This document shows positions 39,038 to 55,184 of a DNA stretch of 64,000 bases, piece after piece (the first letter of the stretch is position 1; the number at the start of each line of letters is the position of its first letter). The stretch spans positions 124,001 through 188,000 of the forward strand of contig NZ_JAPWHE010000006.1 in NCBI RefSeq assembly GCF_027214045.1, read 5' to 3'. Under the pieces are notes generated by a model. The model was not told the origin of the DNA. It did no database searches and saw only the letters and a list, made by a program, of their open reading frames with translations. The position numbers and the translations under genes were made by a program. This DNA is from Castellaniella denitrificans (GTDB lineage Bacteria; Pseudomonadota; Gammaproteobacteria; Burkholderiales; Burkholderiaceae_B).

Positions 39038-40066
39038 TCATGAAGACCGCGCAGCCTGGAAAGTCCGCCGATAGGCCGTGGGCGTTGTCCGCAGACGGGC
39101 GCGGAAATGCTGCCGCAACGACAGGGCGGAACCGAAACCGGCCGCCTGGGCCACCGCATCGATCGACAGGACGCCCCCCTCAAGCATCTCGCGCGCCCGC
39201 GCCAGGCGCAGCGCCAGCAGCCATTGCTTCAGCGATGTCCCCGTGGCCTGCTGGAAATGACGGGTGAAACTGCGCCGGCTCATGGCCGCGCGTGCGGCCA
39301 GCGAGTCGATGGTATGCGGTTCTTGCGCATGCGCGGCGGCCCAGCCCAGCACGCGCGCCAGCCTGCCTTCGCCGGCGCTGGCGGGCATCGGCCGCTCGAT
39401 GAACTGGGCCTGTCCTCCGTCCCGATGCGGCGCGACGACCAGTCTGCGGGCTGCGCGACTGGCGGCCCCGACCCCGCCGAGCCGGCCCAGCAGATGCAGG
39501 CAGCAGTCCAGCCCGGCCGCGACCCCGGCGGAAGTCAGCACCCGGCCCTCGTCCACATACAACGCCTCGCGTTCGACCCGGATGCGGGGGTGGCGCTCGG
39601 CCAGCCGGTCCGCGTAGGCCCAGTGCGTCGTCGCGCGCAAGCCGTCCAGCAACCCCGCCTGGGCCAGGGGGAACGCGCCCAGACACAGCCCCACCAGGCC
39701 CGCTCCGCGTTCTCCGGCAAGGCGCAAAGCCCGGATCAAGACATCCGGCGCAGGACGGCAGTCGTCGTGCCAGGTGGGCACGATCACCCAATCGGCCTGT
39801 TCCAGTTCCGTCAGGTCATGTTCGGGAGTGATCGAGAATCCCCCCGTCGTCCGCAACGGCGGCGGATCGACGGCGCATACGCGGACATCGAAGCCCATGG
39901 CGCCGCCGCCCGCGCCCGATCTGAGGCCGAAGACCAGCGAAGGCACGGACAGGTGAAATGGCGTCATTCCATCAAAGGCCACGACGGCGATCCTGGGAAC
40001 GGTCGCGCCGGCGCCGTCCGCATCGAGCGGTTTCGCAGCAGGAGTGGCTGAATCAGAATCGCACAT
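39038..40066 (-). CDS. GlxA-type transcriptional regulator (DJ-1/PfpI plus AraC domains)
   Basis: A 342-residue regulator. The N-terminal about 200 residues form a DJ-1/PfpI-like amidotransferase fold (RIAVVAFDGMTPFHLSVPSLVFG; GLVGLCLGAFPLAQAGLL, with Cys in the nucleophile-elbow position; RVLTSAGVAAGLDCCLHL). The C-terminal about 100 residues are an AraC helix-turn-helix pair (SLAARAAMSRRSFTRHFQQATG, SIDAVAQAAGFGSALSLRQHF). It is divergent from the isochorismatase-family gene, which it may control. Confidence 0.9.
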   Translation of the reverse strand: MCDSDSATPAAKPLDADGAGATVPRIAVVAFDGMTPFHLSVPSLVFGLRSGAGGGAMGFDVRVCAVDPPPLRTTGGFSITPEHDLTELEQADWVIVPTWHDDCRPAPDVLIRALRLAGERGAGLVGLCLGAFPLAQAGLLDGLRATTHWAYADRLAERHPRIRVEREALYVDEGRVLTSAGVAAGLDCCLHLLGRLGGVGAASRAARRLVVAPHRDGGQAQFIERPMPASAGEGRLARVLGWAAAHAQEPHTIDSLAARAAMSRRSFTRHFQQATGTSLKQWLLALRLARAREMLEGGVLSIDAVAQAAGFGSALSLRQHFRARLRTTPTAYRRTFQAARSS

Positions 40067-40186
40067 GATGGCCCAATTTTATCGAATCATGTGTCCCAGG
40101 CCAATGCCGGCCTGCTTCAGCCTCCGCCACAATGGCGCATCGGCCCGGAAACGGGACGCTTCCTCTCTACCCTTTTGGAGTTTCCC

Positions 40187-40801
40187 ATGTCTGCCAATCC
40201 TCGCCGCGCCCTGCTCGTCATCGACGTCCAGAACGAATATTTCACCGGTAATCTGCCCATCACCTACCCGCCTGCGGAAGACTCGCTGCGCAACATCGGC
40301 CTGGCCATGGAAGCCGCCCGGGAATCCGGCATTCCGGTCGTTCGCGTGTTGCAACACAGCCCCTCGGGCGCCCCCCTGTTCGCGGCGGACTCGGAGGGGC
40401 GGCAACCTCATCCGGCCCTTGCCGGTCACCCCGTGGACCACACAGTCCACAAGACTCGCGCCAGCGCCTTCATGGGGACCGATCTGGCCGACTGGCTGGC
40501 CGCGCGCGATATCGATACTGTGACGGTCGTCGGCTACATGACGCACAATTGCGATGCGGCGACGATCTTCGACGCCCGGCACTGGGAGCTCGGTGCGGAG
40601 TTCCTGTCCGACGCCAGCGGCTCTCTCGCCTACCGGAACGCGGCGGGCGAGGCGAACGGCGAGGAAATCCACCGTGTGTTCTGCACCGTGTTCCATTCGA
40701 ATTTCGCGGCAGTGGCCACGACGGCCCAATGGATCGAAGCCATCCGTGCGGGCCAGCCGCTGGAAAAGGACAATATCTTCCTGTCGAGCCGCGGGCGCTG
40801 A
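40187..40801 (+). CDS. Isochorismatase-family cysteine hydrolase
   Basis: A 204-residue cysteine hydrolase of the isochorismatase/nicotinamidase fold. RRALLVIDVQNEYFTG carries the catalytic Asp, HKTRASAFMGTDLADWL includes the Lys region, and VVGYMTHNCDAATIFDA holds the nucleophilic Cys with the preceding cis-peptide site. The preferred ATG at 40187 has a TGGAG Shine-Dalgarno. Substrates in this family range from isochorismate to nicotinamide, ureidoacrylate and N-carbamoyl compounds; none can be chosen here. Confidence 0.9.
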   Translation: MSANPRRALLVIDVQNEYFTGNLPITYPPAEDSLRNIGLAMEAARESGIPVVRVLQHSPSGAPLFAADSEGRQPHPALAGHPVDHTVHKTRASAFMGTDLADWLAARDIDTVTVVGYMTHNCDAATIFDARHWELGAEFLSDASGSLAYRNAAGEANGEEIHRVFCTVFHSNFAAVATTAQWIEAIRAGQPLEKDNIFLSSRGR

Positions 40802-40846: not shown

Positions 40847-42466
40847 TCAGCCGGCGTCCCGACGCAGGCGCCCGGCCAGATGCCCGCCGAGCCGATGCGC
40901 CAGCGCCATGATGGTCAGTGTCAGATGTTTGTCGGGCAGGACCGGCACCACGCCACCGTCGCAAACATACAGGTTCTCCAATCCATGGGCCTTCAGATCG
41001 CCATCGACCACGCCATCGCGCGCGCTGTCGGCCATGGCGGTGGTGCCGGCATAATGAATGCCGGTCCCGCTGTTGTCACGCGTCGTGTGGCAGAGCGTCG
41101 CGGAAGCGCGGCGCAGCACCTTGCGCCCCCATGCCATCATGGCATCCATCTGCTGATGCGCGCGCGCCGGGACCTCGAAGTCGATCTCGACCTGGGGAAC
41201 GCCCCAGACATCGCGGGACATGCCGGGCCTGACGCGATTGCCGGCGAGGGGCTCGCCCGCGCAGAACAGGCCGAGCGTCAGATAACTGTGGAACATCAGA
41301 CGCGACAACCTGTCCTTCAAACCGGGCCCCAGATGCCGCATCCATTGGAGATAATGCGGCGTGGCGGGAATGCCATGGATGGCATGGCCAATGAACGGGA
41401 ATTCCGAGCCGTCTCGCAACCGGCCGCGCGACATCAGGATCAGCAGATCGCCGTAGCCGATATCGTAATCGCGATGCTTGCCCCAGAGCTTGTACAGTGA
41501 AGTCGACAGCACGACTTTCGGGTTGTCCTGCAGGCGCCTGCCCAATTGATCCTCATGGTTTGCCAGTCCTTGAGGCCGCCGCTCGTCGGCTGAATTGAAC
41601 AGGATGCGCGGTGTTTCAATGGCCCCGGCCGCCAGCACGACATAACGGGCCCGGATCCGGCGGCGCTCGCCGTTGGCGGTGTCCAGGTATTCCACGCCGG
41701 TTACGCGCTTTCCCTCGCCATCGGTCTCCAGACGCAGTACCTTGGCGTTGGTGATCAGCCGATAATTGGAGCGCCGTGCAATGGCCGGCAACAAGCGCGT
41801 GGAAAATTTGTAGACTGCGCCCACCGGGCAGCCTGAGGTGCAGATGCCCGTGGAAATACAGCTGTGCGGCGTGCCTTCGCGCGTGTTGATCGCCTTGCGG
41901 TTTGGAATGGCGTGCGAGTGCGGCTCGCCCAGGGATTTGACGGCATCGACGATGATCCGATCGGCGGGTCGCAAAGGCTTGGGGGGCACATAGCGCCCAT
42001 CGGGCAACTCCGGGATACCCTCGCGGGTCCCGCAGACCGTGATCAGCGTTTCGACCGCGTCGTAATGTGGTTCGAGCGCGTCGTAACTGATGGGCCAACC
42101 GGCCAGATCCCGGGGTGAGAAGCGCACACTGACGCCATTCCAGAGATTCTGCAGGCCATTGAGCGCGAGAATCTGGAAATGCTGGAACTCGCCGGGCCGC
42201 CGCGCGGTGGATCCCGTCCGGCCATCAGCGAACAGCGGGTGGACGAACAGGCTGTCGTGAGGATCGCTGGGCCAGACGGTGTCCGGGCCGATGCCCAGCG
42301 TATCGCCGCCGTCCGGCGGGGTCACGCGGGTGAACTGATCGTCGGGCAACGCCGGACCCTGTTCGAGGGAAATCACATCGATGCCCGCGGTCACCAGCGC
42401 ATGCGCGAGCATTCCGCCGCCCGCACCGGTGCCGACGATACATACTTCGCAGTCGAACTCAGCCAT
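40847..42466 (-). CDS. GMC-family oxidoreductase, membrane sugar-dehydrogenase type
   Basis: A 539-residue GMC oxidoreductase of the gluconate/fructose-dehydrogenase large-subunit type. The FAD fold is EVCIVGTGAGGGMLAHALVTAG. SCISTGICTSGCPVGAVYKF is the Cys-rich motif typical of this group, and VVLAAGAIETPRILFNSA is GMC signature 2. The C-terminal active-site region is NSGTGIHYAGTTAMADS, VCDGGVVPVLPDKHLTLTIMALAHRLG. The ATG at 42466 overlaps the upstream MFS gene by 8 bases. It is the third gene of a DegT-MFS-GMC operon, suggesting oxidation of a sugar or polyol hydroxyl. Electron acceptor and substrate are unknown. Confidence 0.88.
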   Translation of the reverse strand: MAEFDCEVCIVGTGAGGGMLAHALVTAGIDVISLEQGPALPDDQFTRVTPPDGGDTLGIGPDTVWPSDPHDSLFVHPLFADGRTGSTARRPGEFQHFQILALNGLQNLWNGVSVRFSPRDLAGWPISYDALEPHYDAVETLITVCGTREGIPELPDGRYVPPKPLRPADRIIVDAVKSLGEPHSHAIPNRKAINTREGTPHSCISTGICTSGCPVGAVYKFSTRLLPAIARRSNYRLITNAKVLRLETDGEGKRVTGVEYLDTANGERRRIRARYVVLAAGAIETPRILFNSADERRPQGLANHEDQLGRRLQDNPKVVLSTSLYKLWGKHRDYDIGYGDLLILMSRGRLRDGSEFPFIGHAIHGIPATPHYLQWMRHLGPGLKDRLSRLMFHSYLTLGLFCAGEPLAGNRVRPGMSRDVWGVPQVEIDFEVPARAHQQMDAMMAWGRKVLRRASATLCHTTRDNSGTGIHYAGTTAMADSARDGVVDGDLKAHGLENLYVCDGGVVPVLPDKHLTLTIMALAHRLGGHLAGRLRRDAG

Positions 42467-44159
42467 GGCGGTTGTCCTTTGCATTCGCATCTGTGCCAAC
42501 CGACGCCAGGAAAGCCGGCGAGGCATACCGCACGTGCTCCAGAAACATCTTCAGCACTCGCGCTTCGGCACCGAACGACACCCGGTCTGGCATCGAACCG
42601 CCGGCGCGCAGCCAGACCGCGTGCAACGCCACTCGAACCTGGTGATTGTCGTAGGCCAGTTCGCTGATGCGCACGGCCATGTGCTGGAGATCCGCCCGGT
42701 AGGGACTCAGGGCGATCAGCACATCAATGAGGCGGCCCGCCTGCTCGCGCGGCAATGCGTAGCTGGCCTGCACCGCCGCGGCGTCGGGCGCCGGAGCCGT
42801 CAGGTGAGGACGCAGCAGGCGCAACGGTCGACCCGCGGCGAGATGGGCCTCGATGGTTTCAAGCGGCACACCATTGGTCTCGGGCACATAGCGCCGTGAG
42901 AAAAACAGCCCGGCAATACAGACGAACGCGTAGAAAGCGAATACGCCCCCCAGGCCAATGGCCGCGACCAGGACGGGAAATGAAAACACCACGACAAAGT
43001 TGAGGCCCCAATTGGCCAGGGTGGCCACGCTCATGCCCAGCGCCCTGACATGCCGCGGATAGACCTCCGCCATCATCACATAAGGCAAGGGGCCAAGACT
43101 CGCGGCGAAAGCCGCGATGTAGATCACCAACCCCCCCACGGCGATGACGTCGAGCCATTGGGCCTGGGTCCAGGCGCCCAGGGCGATCAGGCCCAAGCTC
43201 AGGGCGGCGCCGCCGAAACCGATGTACAGCAACGGCCGTCGGCCGATGCGGTCGATCAGCGCCATGCCCACCAAGGTCATCAGGACGTTGACGACCCCAA
43301 TGCCCATGGTCGCCAAGACCTGGATACCGTGGGAATCGAACCCCGCTTCCTGGAAAACGGTGGGCGCATAGTAGATCACCGCATTGATGCCGCTGAACTG
43401 CTGCAGCGCGAACAAGCCGACGCCGACTACGAGCGCAGGCCGGACGTTTTGATCGAGCAGGTCGCGCCATCGGGCGCCCCGCCCTCCGTGGGACAGCGCT
43501 TCGGCGGCCATGATCCGTTCGAGTTCGCGTTCGACCTCGGGATCGTCGCGCGGCACGCCGTGCAGCCGGGCCAGCGCCGCACGGGCCGGCGCGGCCCCGC
43601 GCCGGCCAGCCAGCCAGCGCGGCGTATCGGACAGGCACAGCATGCCCGCGAACAGGGCCACGCCCGGGACGGCTCCCAGAAGGAACATGGTGCGCCAGTC
43701 CTCGCCGAGGGCATAATTCGCGACATAGGCGCCAAGTATGCCCAGGGTGACCGACAATTGATAGATCGAAACCAGCATGCCGCGCCGTCGGGCCGGCGCG
43801 CTTTCGGCGATGTAGAGGGGAGCGACCAATGCCGCCACGCCCACCGCGAACCCCAGTATCAGCCTCGCGATGCTGAGCATCCAGACGGATGTGATCTGGC
43901 TGGAAATCACGGCGCCGGCGACGAACATCAAGGCGGCGGCAAGCAGCGAAGTTCGCCGGCCGTAGCGCTCGGCGGCCCGCCCGGCCACCACCGCGCCAAA
44001 GAGAGCCCCCAGGGGGACGGCGGCCGTCATGAACCCTTCCGCGCCCGGCGCAATGTCGAACGCCTCGCGCAAGAAGCCCAAGGCGCCGGCGATGACCCCC
44101 TCGTCGAAACCGAAAAGGATGCCCGCCAGGCCGGCAACGATCGCGACGAAATAGATCAT
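42459..44159 (-). CDS. MFS sugar porter with an extra C-terminal domain
   Basis: A 566-residue protein. Residues 1 to about 450 are a twelve-helix MFS sugar porter: FGFDEGVIAGALGFLREAF, GRRTSLLAAALMFVAG, PLYIAESAPARRRGMLVSIYQL, QQFSGINAVIYYAPTVFQEAG, and the closing VPETNGVPLETIE. A further about 110 residues follow, soluble and predicted helical (LPREQAGRLIDVLIALSPYR; VALHAVWLRAGGSMPDRV). I do not recognise this domain. It overlaps the DegT gene upstream and the GMC gene downstream, so transport is coupled to both enzymes. Likely imports a sugar or cyclitol. Confidence 0.85.
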   Translation of the reverse strand: MIYFVAIVAGLAGILFGFDEGVIAGALGFLREAFDIAPGAEGFMTAAVPLGALFGAVVAGRAAERYGRRTSLLAAALMFVAGAVISSQITSVWMLSIARLILGFAVGVAALVAPLYIAESAPARRRGMLVSIYQLSVTLGILGAYVANYALGEDWRTMFLLGAVPGVALFAGMLCLSDTPRWLAGRRGAAPARAALARLHGVPRDDPEVERELERIMAAEALSHGGRGARWRDLLDQNVRPALVVGVGLFALQQFSGINAVIYYAPTVFQEAGFDSHGIQVLATMGIGVVNVLMTLVGMALIDRIGRRPLLYIGFGGAALSLGLIALGAWTQAQWLDVIAVGGLVIYIAAFAASLGPLPYVMMAEVYPRHVRALGMSVATLANWGLNFVVVFSFPVLVAAIGLGGVFAFYAFVCIAGLFFSRRYVPETNGVPLETIEAHLAAGRPLRLLRPHLTAPAPDAAAVQASYALPREQAGRLIDVLIALSPYRADLQHMAVRISELAYDNHQVRVALHAVWLRAGGSMPDRVSFGAEARVLKMFLEHVRYASPAFLASVGTDANAKDNRHG

Positions 44160-45490
44160 CGCAGCACCGCCGCCGAGACCTTGCGCATGGCGACGACGAT
44201 GTCATCGACGTCTTCGTCCGTCAGGCAGGAGGCAATCGTCAGCAAGGCGCCGTTCGCATGCAGCGCGTCGCAACGCGGCAAGGTCCCGGCGCCATAGCCG
44301 TAGGCCTGGGCAAAGGCATTGGCGGGATGGGTCCATGGGTAACCATCGCGGGTATTGGAGCGACGGTGAACGAGGCTGGGAATGTTCGAGTACCAGTGCA
44401 GCCCCCAGTCGCGCATGGTGATGCATGCCAGGCTGCCCGCCGGCCCGGAGATGCCTTCGGCGCGCAGCGCGGCCACGAAGCGGGCCGCCAGATGCTCGTC
44501 GGGTAGCTCCATCAGCAGGAACGGGCCCGAGTCCCCCTGCGGATCGGGCACATTGCGAAACGACAGGCCTTGCGTATTTTCGAGTGCCGCACGGATTCGC
44601 CATTTGGCTGAACGCATGGCGCCGGTGATGCGCGGCAACTTGCGCAACTGAGCCAGAAGCATGGCGCCGGACAACTCGCTGAGCCGCGCACCCATGCCCC
44701 AGAGCTGGATATCCTGGTCATTGGTATCGAGCCGGCCGGCCGGCGTGCGTGGATACCCGAGATCATGCAACGCCACGATGCGGCGATGCAGGGTGTCGTC
44801 CTCGCAGACGATCAGGCCGCCGTCCCCGGCGGTCATGTTCTTGTTCAACTGGAAGCTGAAAATACCGATATCGCCGAAGCGGCCGACCGGGGTGCCGTGG
44901 AAGCTGGCGCCGGCTGTCTGGGCGCAGTCCTCGATCAATGCAAGACCGTGCGCACGGCACACCGCCGCGACACGATCGATCCGGCCGGGCGCGCCGCTCA
45001 TGTGGACGCACAGCACCGCACGCGTGTGCGGCCCGATCTTGCGTTCGAGATCGTCGGGATCGAGGCAGAAGGTGTCATCGATGTCGACCAGCCGCGGAAT
45101 GGCGCCGGCCCGGACGATGGCCGATACGCAACTCACCCAGAGATAGCCGGGCACCATGACTTCGTCGCCCGGACCGATTTCCAGGGCGGACATGGCGATG
45201 GAGAGGGCCGCTGTTCCCGAGGACACCGCCAGGGCGTGCCGATGACCGAAAGCTGCCTTCCATTCGTCCTCGAACGTATCCACCATCCGCTGAAGGTCCG
45301 GGCCGTAAAAGCGGAACGGACTTTGCGCCCGAATCACACGCTGAATCAGTTCGAGCTCTTCTTCGCCGATCCAGTGCGCGCCGGGAAGCTCCCAGGGCAA
45401 AGGTCTGGTGCGCACCGGCCTGCCGCCATCAATGGCCAGCGGACCGGTGCCTCGTTGGGAGCCCTGCGGGGTCGTTTTGATGTGATCCAT
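44156..45490 (-). CDS. DegT/DnrJ/EryC1-family PLP aminotransferase
   Basis: A 444-residue sugar aminotransferase-family enzyme. The N-terminal LAIDGGRPVRTRPLPW is typical of the subgroup that includes scyllo-inosose aminotransferases. ALAVSSGTAALSIAMSALEI, DEVMVPGYLWVSCVSAIVRAGA, and LIEDCAQTAGASFHG bind PLP, and the Schiff-base Lys is in FSFQLNKNMTAGDGG (K217). All key residues look intact. Members aminate keto-sugars or keto-cyclitols, and a few are dehydratases. It is first in an operon with a sugar porter and a GMC dehydrogenase, which is an unusual setting outside surface-polysaccharide loci. Confidence 0.9.
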   Translation of the reverse strand: MDHIKTTPQGSQRGTGPLAIDGGRPVRTRPLPWELPGAHWIGEEELELIQRVIRAQSPFRFYGPDLQRMVDTFEDEWKAAFGHRHALAVSSGTAALSIAMSALEIGPGDEVMVPGYLWVSCVSAIVRAGAIPRLVDIDDTFCLDPDDLERKIGPHTRAVLCVHMSGAPGRIDRVAAVCRAHGLALIEDCAQTAGASFHGTPVGRFGDIGIFSFQLNKNMTAGDGGLIVCEDDTLHRRIVALHDLGYPRTPAGRLDTNDQDIQLWGMGARLSELSGAMLLAQLRKLPRITGAMRSAKWRIRAALENTQGLSFRNVPDPQGDSGPFLLMELPDEHLAARFVAALRAEGISGPAGSLACITMRDWGLHWYSNIPSLVHRRSNTRDGYPWTHPANAFAQAYGYGAGTLPRCDALHANGALLTIASCLTDEDVDDIVVAMRKVSAAVLR

Positions 45491-45666
45491 GAAAAGCTCC
45501 CGGGACGCTCGGTCCGACGGCGAACGACACTCAGGCGGTTGATGACATCCCGCCGCAAACGCCGCTCCAGAGAAACACTTCGTACGTCATGGAATTGATT
45601 TAAGTATAATTTTTATAGAATGTAAAGAAACCGGAAAGCCTGGAAAACGGCTTAAATCGCCCACTG
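45491..45666. promoter_or_regulatory. Divergent promoter region, DegT operon / second sugar porter
   Basis: A 176-base gap with an AT-rich core at about 45590-45640. A perfect -10 hexamer TATAAT lies at 45605-45610 on the plus strand with no good -35, compatible with an activated promoter for the gene at 45667. No regulator gene is adjacent. Confidence 0.45.
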
Positions 45667-47082
45667 ATGTCCGATTCTGCCGTCTTCATGGCAAATCCGG
45701 ATGTTTTTTTATCCAGCCGAGGGCCCATGCCAAATCCCACCTTGTGGATCGCCTTTCTGGTCTCGTGCGCAGGCGTGCTCTTCGGCTACGGCATCACCTC
45801 GATCGCCGGCGTGCTCGATACGCTCAGCGATGTGTTCGCGCTGACTCTGCTCGAAACCCAATTCCTCGTGTTCATTCTGGTGGCGGGGTGTTTTGCCGGC
45901 GCGGTCATGGCGGGCCCGCTGTCCCTGCGTTGGGGACGCCGGCCCACCATGGCGGTGGCCACACTGGCTTCCGCCTGCGCTTATGCCTTCCTGCTGACCG
46001 CGCCGACCCTGACCGGTCTGACCGTCGCGCGCGCACTGGCGGGGATCACCATCGGCCTGTATTCGATGGTCATCCCCATGTACGCGGCAGAAACCGCCAG
46101 GGCCTCCCAGCGCGGCGCCATGGTGGCCTTGTTCCAGCTCGCAATCACCGGCGGCATCCTGCTCTCCTATGGCCTGGCGCTATGGCTGGACGCGTCGGGC
46201 CAGTGGTCCCTGGTGCTGGGAGCGGGCCTGGCGCCCACCGCGCTGGCCGCCCTGGGACTGACCGTCCTGCCCGAGAGCCCGCGCTGGCTTGCCGCGCGTG
46301 GCCGTCATGTTCAGGCCAGCGCCTCCGCGATGCGCCTGGGCCTGGCCGGCGAATGGCGGACCCTGCCCGATTCGCCCCTCCCCGCCACGCCGCCCGCCGG
46401 GCTGCTGCGCCAAGGACGCGTGCCAGGCGTGCTGGCGCTGTGCAGCACACTGTTCATCCTCCAGAATCTCAGCGGCATCGACGCGATCCTGTACTATGCG
46501 CCGCGGATCTTCGGCGATCTGGGGTTTTCGTCCAGCGCGGCCGCACTGGGTGCCACCTTTGGCCTGGGCCTGACGAACTTCATCGCGACATTCGCCAGCG
46601 TCGCGCTCGTCGACCACCTTGGACGTCGTCGGCTGTGGATCGGAGGCTCGGCGGCAATGGTCGTCGGTTTGGCGGCGGTGATCATCGCCGCGCACGGCGA
46701 CTCCCCCTGGCTTGGCCTGGCGGGCCTGTGCGTCTACATCCTCGCGTTCGCTGTCAGCCTGGGGCCCCTGCCCTATGTCCTGATGTCGGAACTCTTCCCC
46801 AGCGCGTTGCGGGAACAGGGTATCGCGCTTGCTTCCGCAGTCAGCTGGCTGTTCAACGCCCTGATCGCGCTGACCTTCCTTTCCATCGTCGAGGCCATGA
46901 GCCTGTCGGGCGCCATGCTGCTGTTTCTCGGTGTTTGCCTGGCATCTTTGCTGCTGGGCATCCGACTGTTGCCAGAAACCCGTCACATGCCGCTGGAAGC
47001 CATCGAATCCCGGGTGCTCGCCGGCCTGCCGCTGCGCGAACTGGGCCATCCACGGCATGCCGCCAGCCCGGCGGACACTTGA
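45667..47082 (+). CDS. MFS sugar porter
   Basis: A 471-residue sugar porter of the major facilitator superfamily with twelve predicted helices. Motifs visible are GVLFGYGITSIAGVLDTL, LSLRWGRRPTMAVATLAS, IPMYAAETARASQRGAMVALFQ, LQNLSGIDAILYYAPRIFGDLG, and PETRHMPLEAIESRV. The start is uncertain: the ATG at 45667 has no clear Shine-Dalgarno, while one at 45727 follows GAGGG but leaves almost nothing before TM1. It is divergent from the DegT operon and may import the same class of substrate. It differs from the other porter by lacking the C-terminal extension. Confidence 0.88.
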   Translation: MSDSAVFMANPDVFLSSRGPMPNPTLWIAFLVSCAGVLFGYGITSIAGVLDTLSDVFALTLLETQFLVFILVAGCFAGAVMAGPLSLRWGRRPTMAVATLASACAYAFLLTAPTLTGLTVARALAGITIGLYSMVIPMYAAETARASQRGAMVALFQLAITGGILLSYGLALWLDASGQWSLVLGAGLAPTALAALGLTVLPESPRWLAARGRHVQASASAMRLGLAGEWRTLPDSPLPATPPAGLLRQGRVPGVLALCSTLFILQNLSGIDAILYYAPRIFGDLGFSSSAAALGATFGLGLTNFIATFASVALVDHLGRRRLWIGGSAAMVVGLAAVIIAAHGDSPWLGLAGLCVYILAFAVSLGPLPYVLMSELFPSALREQGIALASAVSWLFNALIALTFLSIVEAMSLSGAMLLFLGVCLASLLLGIRLLPETRHMPLEAIESRVLAGLPLRELGHPRHAASPADT

Positions 47083-52114: not shown

Positions 52115-52728
52115 GGTGAACCTCCCCCTTCGAGCAGGCGGCGGACGGGGGCGAAGCCGCGCCGGTGCTCTGGACACGGGCCGAACTCGGCCAGCCGGGC
52201 CAGGTGCAGCGCCGTACCGTAGCCCTTGTGGCGGTCGAAGGCGTATTGCGGATGGCGCGCATGCATATCCATGCAACACGCGTCGCGTGCGGTCTTGGCC
52301 AGAATGGAGGCGGCGGAAATCGCGGGTTCCAGGGCGTCGCCCCCCACCACGGCCCGGGCGGAACACGGCAATCCCTTGGGAAGACGGTTGCCGTCCACCA
52401 GGATCAGTGCCGGTGCAAAGGACAGGCCCAGGCAGGCCCGCCGCATGGCCAGCATCGTCGCCTGGAGGATGTTCAGACGCTCGATCTCCTCGACGCTGGC
52501 GCTGGCGACGGCCCAGGCCAACGCCCGTTCGCGGATCAAAACGGCCAGGACATCCCGGCGTTCGGGGTTGAGCCTCTTGGAGTCGTCCAGGCCTTCGATC
52601 GGACGGTCCGGATCCAGGACGACGGCGGCGGCGTAGACCGGACCCGCCAGGGGCCCGCGCCCCGCCTCGTCCACGCCGGCGACCGGGCCGGACGCCACGG
52701 GAGTGTCGAACAGATCAGGCGTTCGCAC
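52111..52728 (-). CDS. rnhB: Ribonuclease HII
   Basis: Cleaves RNA in RNA-DNA hybrids and at embedded ribonucleotides. The product has 205 residues from a GTG start that overlaps the lpxB stop by 14 bases. The catalytic acidic pair is in [23 protein letters not shown] (D20, E21). [14 protein letters not shown] and [12 protein letters not shown] carry further active-site residues, and [34 protein letters not shown] is family-typical. Confidence 0.96.
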
Positions 52729-53938
52729 GGCTGGTTTCCAGAATGGCCTGCGCCGCCAGGCCCGGCGTATCGCGGCTCAGCGTCTCGTGCAGTGCCGTGA
52801 AACGCCGCGCAACGCGTTCGGCCAGGTCGGCGTCGGTCAACGCCGCCCAGGTATGCTCCGCCAGGGCCTCGGGCGTGGCGGCTTCCTGGAGCAGTTCCGG
52901 CACGACGAACTCCCGCTCGAGAATGTTCGGCAGCCCGACCCAGGGCAGGCTCGGTGCGTCCTGCCCGGATTTCCAGGCCATGATGCGCCGCATCCAAGGG
53001 GTGATGACGTAGGAAATCACCAGGGGCCGCTTGAAGAGCGCGGCCTCGAGGGTTGCCGTGCCGCTGGCCACCAGCACGGCATCGGCGGCCTCCATGGCGT
53101 GCCAGGCGATTGGCCATCCAGAGGTATCCAGACCGTCGACCCGTGGCGGCGCGGCGGCCTGCCCCGTCTCCGGCAATGCCGACAGAACCCGGCATCCTGG
53201 GAGCGGGTATTGCGCCAGGATGGCCTCGAACTGGGTGCGACGTCGCTCGTTGACCACCGGCACGACGCATTCCAGATCGGGATCCTGGCGCATCAGGATC
53301 CTGGCGGCCTGCAGGAATCGGGGGGCGAGCAGGCGAATCTCGGATTCGCGGCTGCCCGGCATCAGCGCCAGCACCCGGCGGCCGGCTTGCAGACCCAGCC
53401 GCGCGCGCGCGGCCGCGCGGTCCGGCCGTGCGGGGATGAGTTCAGCCAGGGGATGCCCCACATAAGTCACGGGCACGCCCTGTTCCCGGTAGAGATCGAC
53501 TTCAAAGGGAAACAGCACCAGCATGTGCGATACCGCTCGACGGATCTGATGGATGCGCTCGAAGCGCCAGGCCCAGATCGACGGACCGACAAAATGCACG
53601 GTGGGGATGCCGGCGGCGCGCAGTTTTTCTTCCAGGCGCAGATTGAAGTCCGGCGCGTCGACCCCCACGAACACGTCCGGACGCCAGCCCAGCGTGCGGC
53701 GACGGGTGTCGCGCCAGGTGCGGATCAGTCGCGGCGCCTGACGCAGCGCGTCGACATAGCCGAATACGGACAGTGCATCCATGGGATGCCAGGCCTCGAA
53801 CCCTTCACGGGCCATGGCCGGCCCGCCAATGCCCATGGCGCGGACATCGGCATCACGCGCCCGCAGACCGCGCAGCATGCGCGCCGCCAGCAGGTCGCCG
53901 GAAGGTTCTCCTGCCACAATGGCGGCGGAGAAGGTCAT
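52715..53938 (-). CDS. lpxB: Lipid A disaccharide synthase
   Basis: Joins lipid X and UDP-2,3-diacylglucosamine in lipid A synthesis. The product has 407 residues. It starts [21 protein letters not shown], the LpxB signature. [33 protein letters not shown] and [13 protein letters not shown] follow, and [15 protein letters not shown] and [22 protein letters not shown] form the sugar-nucleotide site. It overlaps lpxA by 4 bases. Confidence 0.97.
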
Positions 53939-54735
53939 GGCCGGGCGATCCCCCGGCTGGACGCGCGCAGGAAATCGATCAGCGTCTGGATGGCGGGCGA
54001 CTCGGCCGGGTGTTCCGTCTGCAGGACAACCAGCGCCTCGATGGCCTGTTCCACGTTCAACTGGCGTCGGTAGAGGATCTTGTAGGCGTCTTTGAGCGCC
54101 TGGACGTCGGCCGGCGTGAAACCGCGCCGTCCCAGGCCTTCGGCGTTGATGCCGACCGGCCGGAACGAGTCGCCCGCGCCGATCACGTAAGGTGGCACGT
54201 CCTGGCGGACGGAACTGGTGCCGCCGATCATGGCATGCGCACCGATGCGCACGAACTGGTGCACCGCCGACAGGCCGCCCAGGATGGCCCAGTCGCCGAT
54301 GTGGATGTGGCCCGCCAGCTGCACGCTGTTGGCGATCACGATATGGCTGCCCAACTGGCAATCATGGGCAATGTGGACGTAGGCCATGATCCAGTTGTCG
54401 TCGCCCAGCCGCGTGGTGCCCACGTCCTGCGCGGTGCCGGTATTCACGGTCACGAACTCGCGGAACGTGTTGCCCGCGCCGATTTCCAGCGCCGTGGGCT
54501 CGCCCGCGTATTTCTTGTCCTGGGGAATGCCGCCGATGGAGCAATACCGGTAAAAATGGTTGTCCGGGCCGATGACGGTATGCCCGTCGATGGCGCAATG
54601 CGGGCCAATGCGCGTGCGCGCCCCGACGCTGACGTGCTCGCCGACGATGCTGTAGGGTCCGACGACGACGTCTTCGCCCAGCACCGCGCCCGGCGCGACG
54701 AGGGCCGTGGGGTGGATCTGCGCCGCGCCCATCAT
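53935..54735 (-). CDS. lpxA: UDP-N-acetylglucosamine acyltransferase
   Basis: First step of lipid A synthesis, transferring a 3-hydroxyacyl chain from ACP to UDP-GlcNAc. The product has 266 residues, starting [20 protein letters not shown] at the fabZ overlap. It is built of left-handed beta-helix hexapeptide repeats. The catalytic His is in [16 protein letters not shown], and the C-terminal helical part has [29 protein letters not shown]. Confidence 0.96.
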
Positions 54736-55184
54736 TCCTCCAGGATACGCACCGCGCACATGATCTTGGCTTCGGCGGCGATCTGATCGTCGACCTTGGC
54801 CACGGCGGTGTACTTGCAGATGGAACGGCTGAGCTTGTCGGCCGAGACTTCCATGCGCAACTGGTCGCCGGGCACCACGGGGCGGCGGAAGCGGGCGCCG
54901 TCCACGCCGACCAGATAATAGGCGACTTTGGCGCTGGCCAGATTGGGCGCGCCGGCGTCGGCGAAGGAGAACAGCGCGGCCGCCTGGGCCAGGGCCTCGA
55001 TGATGAGGACACCGGGCATCACCGGATGATGGGCGAAGTGTCCCTGGAAAAAAGGCTCGTTGTAGGTGACATTCTTGATGGCCACGATGCTCTTGCCCGG
55101 GTCCATTTCCAGGACGCGGTCCACGAGCAGCATCGGCTGCCGGTGCGGCAGCCGTTCCATGATGTCTTTGATATCGAGTTCCAT
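54732..55184 (-). CDS. fabZ: 3-Hydroxyacyl-ACP dehydratase FabZ
   Basis: Hot-dog-fold dehydratase of fatty acid elongation. The product has 150 residues. [26 protein letters not shown] is the family start. The catalytic His and Glu lie in [29 protein letters not shown]. It sits between lpxD (1-base overlap) and lpxA, so it competes with LpxA/LpxD for 3-hydroxyacyl-ACP. Confidence 0.97.

Follow-up and report, generated by a model that had tools for sequence, protein, structure and literature searches.

A stretch of 64,000 nucleotides from Castellaniella denitrificans (contig NZ_JAPWHE010000006.1, positions 124,001 to 188,000; this whole stretch is called the window below) carries, at its positions 40,847 to 47,082, four genes that form a real and widespread unit: an aminotransferase of the DegT/DnrJ/EryC1/StrS family (DegT), two sugar porters (MFS1 and MFS2), and a GMC dehydrogenase dependent on flavin adenine dinucleotide (FAD). 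The unit is found from soil bacteria to Legionella, across alpha-, beta-, and gammaproteobacteria. In our reading, the cassette probably oxidizes, aminates, and secretes a glucose-derived amino sugar. A more specific proposal, which we favor only slightly, is that it is self-contained and makes and secretes this amino sugar from glucose in four steps, by a route whose chemistry we infer from sequence comparison, as we do the C3 position of the amine and the direction of MFS2. The MFS1-type porter would import glucose by proton symport. The GMC flavoenzyme, which in its type-1 form would work with a small helical partner fused to the porter C-terminus in several Betaproteobacteria, would convert free glucose to a keto-glucose, with C3 as the likeliest site of oxidation. 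DegT, using pyridoxal 5′-phosphate (PLP) and an amino acid donor, would aminate the keto-glucose to 3-amino-3-deoxyglucose (kanosamine) or an epimer, and the MFS2-type porter, with its altered pocket and its mostly lost proton-coupling Asp, would release the amino sugar. A search of open-license papers turned up no described pathway that uses this gene set, in keeping with a preliminary description made from the letters of the window alone, whose author knew of none.

A conserved four-gene unit

A scan with DegT alone returned 88 candidates, the best 80 of which were retained; these gave 78 loci, and 54 of them carry one GMC gene, one MFS1-type porter, and one MFS2-type porter within the stretch fetched. 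The preliminary description had proposed DegT, one porter, and GMC as a trio to be sought in other genomes. That search has now been run and the set is conserved, with the amendment that the divergent porter is also part of the unit and differs at its pocket residues. The GMC enzyme is like that of the window (type 1) in 29 of the 78 loci, a distant form of about 500 residues (type 2) in 32, and absent or a fragment in 17; the full sets divide into 27 with type 1 and 27 with type 2. Eight loci are partial or odd (L028, L042, L045, L046, L048, L049, L062, and L079). Gene order varies from the divergent arrangement of the window to a single direction in Stappiaceae and a GMC gene ahead of DegT in Legionella. 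On a DegT tree of 77 rows, from which rows of 300 residues or fewer were left out, GMC type switches repeatedly; type 2 needs six changes, at least three of them forced by well-supported branches. Any gene cluster other than porter, DegT, and GMC appears in at most 11 of the 78 loci, and the link to a polysaccharide locus that the preliminary description had raised as a counter-case was seen in none of them, the gene calls being automatic and mostly unannotated.

A second test was led by the porter and overlaps with the first, since at least five of its nine fetched cassettes were already in the DegT-led set. MFS2 was compared with 397 genomes of the order of the L020 genome (L020's included), with at most four candidates scored per genome, and 23 genomes gave a match at E ≤ 1e-50. 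In ten of these, the match has 48-58% identity; one of the ten is L020 and the other nine were fetched. All ten carry a porter with the Asn/Asp motif of MFS2 (a D-porter), DegT, GMC, and an MFS1-type porter (an N-porter) in the same stretch. The other 13 genomes have Gln/Asn in the porter motif. No DegT and no GMC were seen in 11 of them, over stretches of 15-16 kb, or in the 4.3 kb of L182, and in L181, a 2.6 kb piece, a type-2 GMC gene adjoins the N-porter; these two short loci are the sole coverage of genomes G576 and G639, respectively.

In the window, MFS1 shares 4 bases with DegT (44156-44159) and, when the GMC start that fits its relatives is used, 8 bases with GMC (42459-42466). The overlaps and the divergent second porter had been reported in the preliminary description, and the open reading frame (ORF) coordinates agree; its family names are likewise upheld by matches to PF01041, TIGR00879, and PF05199/PF00732. 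The 176 bases between the DegT and MFS2 starts (45491-45666) would be expected to hold promoters for both arms; a consensus promoter scan of this region found none.

The cassette is probably accessory and spread horizontally. By DegT, the nearest named relative is Castellaniella sp. S9, at 86% identity, and a DegT of this kind is present in two of ten genomes of the genus, plus one more at 73% among the 61 genomes searched. In S9 (L142), the cassette sits between smpB and the methylguanine methyltransferase/PEP synthase genes; in five of five other genus genomes read, no cassette lies at this site. In the genus of the Legionella locus L062, the cassette DegT occurs in three of 45 genomes.

Two clades of porter

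MFS1 (42459-44159, minus strand, 566 aa) consists of a sugar porter domain (residues 1-445, 42825-44159, minus strand) and a C-terminal helical domain discussed below, and MFS2 (45667-47082, plus strand, 471 aa) is encoded divergently. With 372 and 288 bits against the TIGR00879 sugar porter cut-off of 238, they are the sole two proteins above this cut-off in the 3.1 Mb genome. The family and its motifs are common to both porters and to GlcP, XylE, and the GLUT proteins. MFS1, to which GlcP is the closest solved relative (249 bits), retains the pocket residues read in transmembrane helices (TM) 5, 7, and 1 (Q253, Q254 ... N259, and Asp19 in TM1), with Tyr for the TM10 Trp. MFS2, still a family member by profile, differs from those porters in having Asn for the second TM7 Gln (N267), Asp for the TM7 Asn that MFS1 keeps (D272), and no TM1 Asp (LFGYG).

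These differences define two clades. After porter domains of 300 residues or fewer or with E > 1e-15 were dropped, 97 remained, including the window's two, and their TM7 motif is QQ..GIN in 57, QN..GID in 27, AN..GID in 11, and otherwise in two. A tree built without the motif columns separates 57 N-porters (MFS1-type) from 38 D-porters ([QA]N..GID, MFS2-type) and places the two odd domains, both from Ancylobacter, outside both clades, as it does 19 background porters. The sole columns that are invariant within each clade yet differ between them all lie in TM7: the second Gln/Asn, the Asn/Asp, and an Ile/Leu three residues further on. The Asp is present in 38 of 38 members of the MFS2 clade and the Asn in 19 of 19 background porters above 150 bits; background porters below 150 bits were left out of the tree, and among them L114 and L136 had the Asn and L116 and L117 did not align. 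The TM1 Asp is found in all 57 N-porters, all 19 background porters, and two of the 38 D-porters, the others having Ser (16), Gly (9), Asn (9), Cys (1), or a gap (1).

Published work ties these positions to substrate and coupling. The TM7 Asn is described as a residue that all sugar porters conserve. In PfHT1, this Asn contacts the C3 and C4 hydroxyls of the fructose analogue 2,5-anhydromannitol, with the second Gln meeting the C3 hydroxyl first and the Asn afterwards, and replacement of the Asn by Ala abolishes transport in PfHT1 and GLUT5 (PMC13095657). We matched the PfHT1 Asn to our TM7 column by its spacing to the Gln and the XylE alignment and not by published numbering. In GLUT3, the Gln pair holds the C2 and C3 hydroxyls of glucose (PMC10322154). 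The third differing column is the position of XylE L297, a gate residue that matters for the sugar moved (PMC13095657), and the TM1 Asp is the XylE protonation site, where the uniporter GLUT1 has Asn (PMC5491310). The substrate of MFS2 is expected to differ. The N-porter looks like a system for proton-driven uptake of an ordinary hexose and the D-porter like one for the uncoupled passage of a sugar positively charged near C3, which is what an exporter of the DegT product would need.

Some further porters were noted in passing. Three porters 57-65% identical to MFS1 (L198, L199, and L201) have QQ..GIN, with neither DegT nor GMC within the 15-16 kb stretches read, and two outside cassettes (L206 and L207) have Asn for the TM1 Asp with QQ..GIN retained. 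In Ancylobacter (L045, 13293-18083, and L049), two porters share one open frame of about 890 residues with the second-half motif IV..GWD, and the double porter of L045 adjoins a fused glycosyltransferase-sucrose-phosphatase gene.

The dehydrogenase, its small partner, and the aminotransferase

The GMC gene of the window encodes a type-1 FAD dehydrogenase (40847-42466, minus strand, 539 aa) that matches PF05199 and PF00732. Its longest ORF is 40847-42526 (minus strand); the start at MAEFDCEV agrees with aligned relatives. Toward its start the protein has VGTGAGGG, which we take to be the FAD motif, and H471 and H514, presumably the catalytic His pair, are invariant in 18 aligned relatives. Also invariant in 18 of 18 is C203-x5-C209-x3-C213; the C-x5-C-x3-CPxG pattern occurs in 24 of 29 type-1 GMCs and in none of 32 type-2 GMCs. 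The closest solved relatives are FAD glucose dehydrogenase (162 bits) and fructose dehydrogenase (126 bits; PDB 6a2u and 7w2j), whose Cys-x5-Cys-x3-Cys aligns with that of the type-1 GMC, and a Cys triad of this spacing presumably binds a 3Fe-4S cluster in FAD glucose dehydrogenase. Because this spacing is kept, the type-1 GMC probably hands its electrons to a carrier. In FAD glucose and fructose dehydrogenases, an exported gamma subunit and a (multihaem) cytochrome c subunit accompany the enzyme; neither was among the eight genes scanned (39.0-50.3 kb). The matches of the type-1 GMC to solved structures also include the aminoglycoside oxidase 7dve, an enzyme of aminoglycoside biosynthesis that we take to act on a C6 hydroxyl. 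GMC enzymes that oxidize glycosides at C3 exist (PMC10646112).

The type-1 enzyme appears to have a companion that the preliminary description had not noticed. MFS1 runs about 120 residues past the porter, and about the last 100 of these make up a separate domain (about residues 461-560, 42480-42779, minus strand) that is homologous to a stand-alone protein of about 100 residues. In most type-1 relatives, the domain is such a protein, of 94-122 residues, preceding GMC; in L026, GMC lies apart from it, on the other strand. A profile grown from the domain finds it in 29 of 29 type-1 loci and in none of the 49 other loci. The in-frame porter fusion is present in the window, L011, L017, L025, L027, L032, and L073, and MFS1 matches L143 over one continuous stretch. 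In L009, the domain is in two pieces in different frames; L009 (12785-13030) and L142 (7273-7576) are the Castellaniella sp. S9 loci, in which the porter fusion changes frame within the domain at about residue 525, through either sequencing error or decay. Comparison of 25 members with Pfam gave no match of note (best E 0.0058), and no solved relative appeared in a structure-database comparison. AlphaFold2 predicts a helical bundle (117 residues, mean predicted local distance difference test score 86.8), for which no convincing fold match was found. The small protein lies between DegT and GMC in Ancylobacter and before GMC, apart from the porter, in Legionella; given these placements and its restriction to type-1 loci, it travels with GMC and not with the porter, and it may be a small subunit of the type-1 GMC. 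Because porters of this kind have a cytoplasmic C-terminus, GMC would be docked beneath the importer by the fusion.

DegT (44156-45490, minus strand, 444 aa) matches PF01041 at 251 bits. K217, in NKNMT, aligns with a Lys of KdnA and is presumably the Lys that forms the Schiff base with PLP; N216-K217-N218 is invariant in 22 aligned relatives. When the DegT profile is compared with solved structures, KdnA is closest (PDB 5k8b, 279 bits; next 187), and scyllo-inosose aminotransferases, at 171 bits, come below both KdnA and ArnB. KdnA aminates the oxidized form of free 3-deoxy-D-manno-octulosonic acid (Kdo), which suggests that this DegT branch can act on a free, oxidized sugar. Distant DegT relatives in L074, L066, and L078 stand with genes for ABC sugar importers (recognized by eye), for an MTTB-type methyltransferase, or for Gfo/Idh enzymes and TIM-barrel isomerases, and with such neighbors the wider family may also serve catabolism.

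Substrate, rival readings, and surroundings

The preliminary description had suggested import of a sugar or cyclitol, oxidation to a ketone, and transamination. This order of events is the best-supported reading; glucose, and not a cyclitol, looks to be the substrate, in line with GlcP being the closest solved match to MFS1. In the L062 genome, a porter 63% identical to the N-porter of the L061 cassette adjoins genes for glucokinase, KDPG aldolase, and GH15, and Reyranella cassettes include a glucokinase (L058, 8935-9924) and an OprB porin (L058, 12852-14201). In L050, which is Reyranella-type, a further MFS-like gene follows. For the position of the amine, C3 is a tentative choice. The C3 hydroxyl is the single one named for both changed TM7 residues (PMC13095657, PMC10322154), and the gene ahead of DegT in L062 encodes a phosphatase that, among solved structures, matches best to NtdB (135 bits; next 40), the kanosamine-6-phosphate phosphatase of Bacillus (PMC8788734). 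A weak second NtdB match in L049 (21% identity) is part of a sucrose-phosphatase fusion. The L062 locus itself, from a Legionella metagenome-assembled genome (1-4803), has consecutive genes for the NtdB-like phosphatase, DegT, a diverged GMC, and an acyltransferase-like protein (PF03417).

Several points weigh against glucose oxidation and amination at C3 followed by export through MFS2. On the porter side, D27N alone does not convert XylE to a uniporter (PMC5491310), the TM1 Asp is also missing (as Asn) in two of 13 porters outside cassettes and persists in two of the 38 D-porters, the single D-porter clade makes the Asn-to-Asp change one event retained and not many, and the two odd motifs come from the second half of a fused double porter. 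The C3 and C4 hydroxyl contacts cited for the Asn were measured with a fructose analogue and not with glucose, and this lowers our confidence in C3. On the enzyme side, the type-2 GMC profile ranks pyranose oxidase 9fl2 (112 bits) and glucose dehydrogenase (111 bits) on top, followed by 7dve (88 bits), fructose dehydrogenase (85 bits), and the glycoside 3-oxidase 7qf8 (83 bits). We take pyranose oxidase to act at C2 and glucose dehydrogenase at C1. The known kanosamine aminotransferases NtdA (118 bits) and RifK (158 bits) are far from DegT, and the presumed target group of KdnA, a terminal aldehyde, would fit C6. The NtdB relative occurs in one of 78 loci, where the DegT is on a long branch among the most diverged and the genome shows no D-porter match. 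Finally, 16 of the 78 loci have a DegT with neither GMC nor porter, some in catabolic-looking clusters.

Some of these points would suit the same logic at another carbon, with oxidation at C2, C4, or C6 giving glucosamine or mannosamine, 4-amino-, or 6-amino-6-deoxyglucose. The pyranose oxidase at the head of the type-2 ranking, the presumed aldehyde chemistry of KdnA, and the C6 oxidase 7dve among the GMC matches all lean this way, as do the further contacts of the TM7 Asn with the C4 hydroxyl and of the Gln pair with the C2 hydroxyl; we consider it unlikely, given the C3 hydroxyl shared by both changed residues and the NtdB relative in L062. Catabolism, in which MFS2 would import an amino sugar such as kanosamine and DegT would remove the amine so that the product is used alongside imported glucose, is improbable. 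The Reyranella glucokinase and OprB and the ABC importers, Gfo/Idh enzymes, and TIM-barrel isomerases beside distant DegT relatives speak for it. GMC enzymes oxidize their substrates, however, and here one would have to run backwards and reduce a ketone, a difficulty that also makes the preliminary description's reverse direction, amino-sugar breakdown, less likely. The proton-coupling Asp is also mostly lost from MFS2-type porters, and the window's genome has no PF02685 glucokinase and no PF00480 (ROK) kinase, other sugar kinases not having been searched for, which argues against glucose uptake for food. A cyclitol route, from inositol through inosose to inosamine, draws on the scyllo-inosose aminotransferases being DegT enzymes that match the profile; it is quite improbable, with KdnA and ArnB outscoring them and glucose genes accompanying the cassette or a close porter. 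An association of unrelated neighbors by chance, which the patchy inheritance within the genus might suggest, has negligible probability and is refuted by the full sets in 54 of 78 loci, in several gene orders, and by the 10 of 10 D-porters with DegT, GMC, and an N-porter.

Of known systems, KdnB/KdnA of Shewanella is like the glucose-to-amino-sugar proposal in pairing a dehydrogenase with a DegT enzyme, its closest solved relative, on a free sugar. That pathway makes 8-amino-Kdo from Kdo, with KdnB from another dehydrogenase family. The NtdCAB/KabCAB kanosamine operon of Bacillus shares C3 oxidation of a glucose unit followed by a DegT-fold aminotransferase and, in L062, the NtdB relative; it starts from glucose-6-phosphate, uses the dehydrogenase NtdC, and ends with a phosphatase (PMC8788734). 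The cassette differs in its GMC flavoenzyme, its two porters, the lack of a phosphatase in the window's cassette, and a DegT that is not nearest NtdA. Membership in the Ntd/Kab family is rejected, with 118 bits for NtdA against 279 for KdnA and with NtdC and NtdB not among the window's cassette genes. The RifL/RifK/RifM route of Amycolatopsis also has a 3-keto-glucose unit aminated by a DegT enzyme; it is UDP-glucose-bound, and the part of the source available names no GMC or porter (PMC8788734). By analogy, the cassette would work like the NtdC/NtdA or KdnB/KdnA dehydrogenase-aminotransferase pairs.

Were the glucose proposal correct, a widespread set with mere general family names would make and secrete an amino sugar from plain glucose, adding a further route to kanosamine-type sugars; the TM7 Asn-to-Asp change would offer a testable rule by which a sugar porter could be made to export amino sugars, and import and oxidation would be physically linked. 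The boldest form of the idea, which we regard as doubtful, is a new mobile route, phosphate-free and nucleotide-free, to a secreted kanosamine-type antibiotic or private sugar. Its D-porter would have been retuned once from hydroxyl to ammonium and turned into a proton-decoupled exporter, and its undescribed GMC partner, fused to the importer in several Betaproteobacteria, would let glucose be oxidized as it emerges from the porter.

The surroundings add few candidates. The preliminary description saw no glycosyltransferase near; LpxB (ORF 52715-54361) and LpxA (53935-54759) do lie about 6 kb from the cassette, and the statement holds insofar as these are housekeeping lipid A genes. At 39038-40801, a DJ-1/AraC-type regulator adjoins an isochorismatase-family hydrolase; both genes also occur in L154, where the cassette is absent, and for that reason they are not counted as cassette parts. 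Elsewhere in the genome, contig 11 has three strong DegT genes within 34 kb (about 209-243 kb), perhaps a surface polysaccharide locus.

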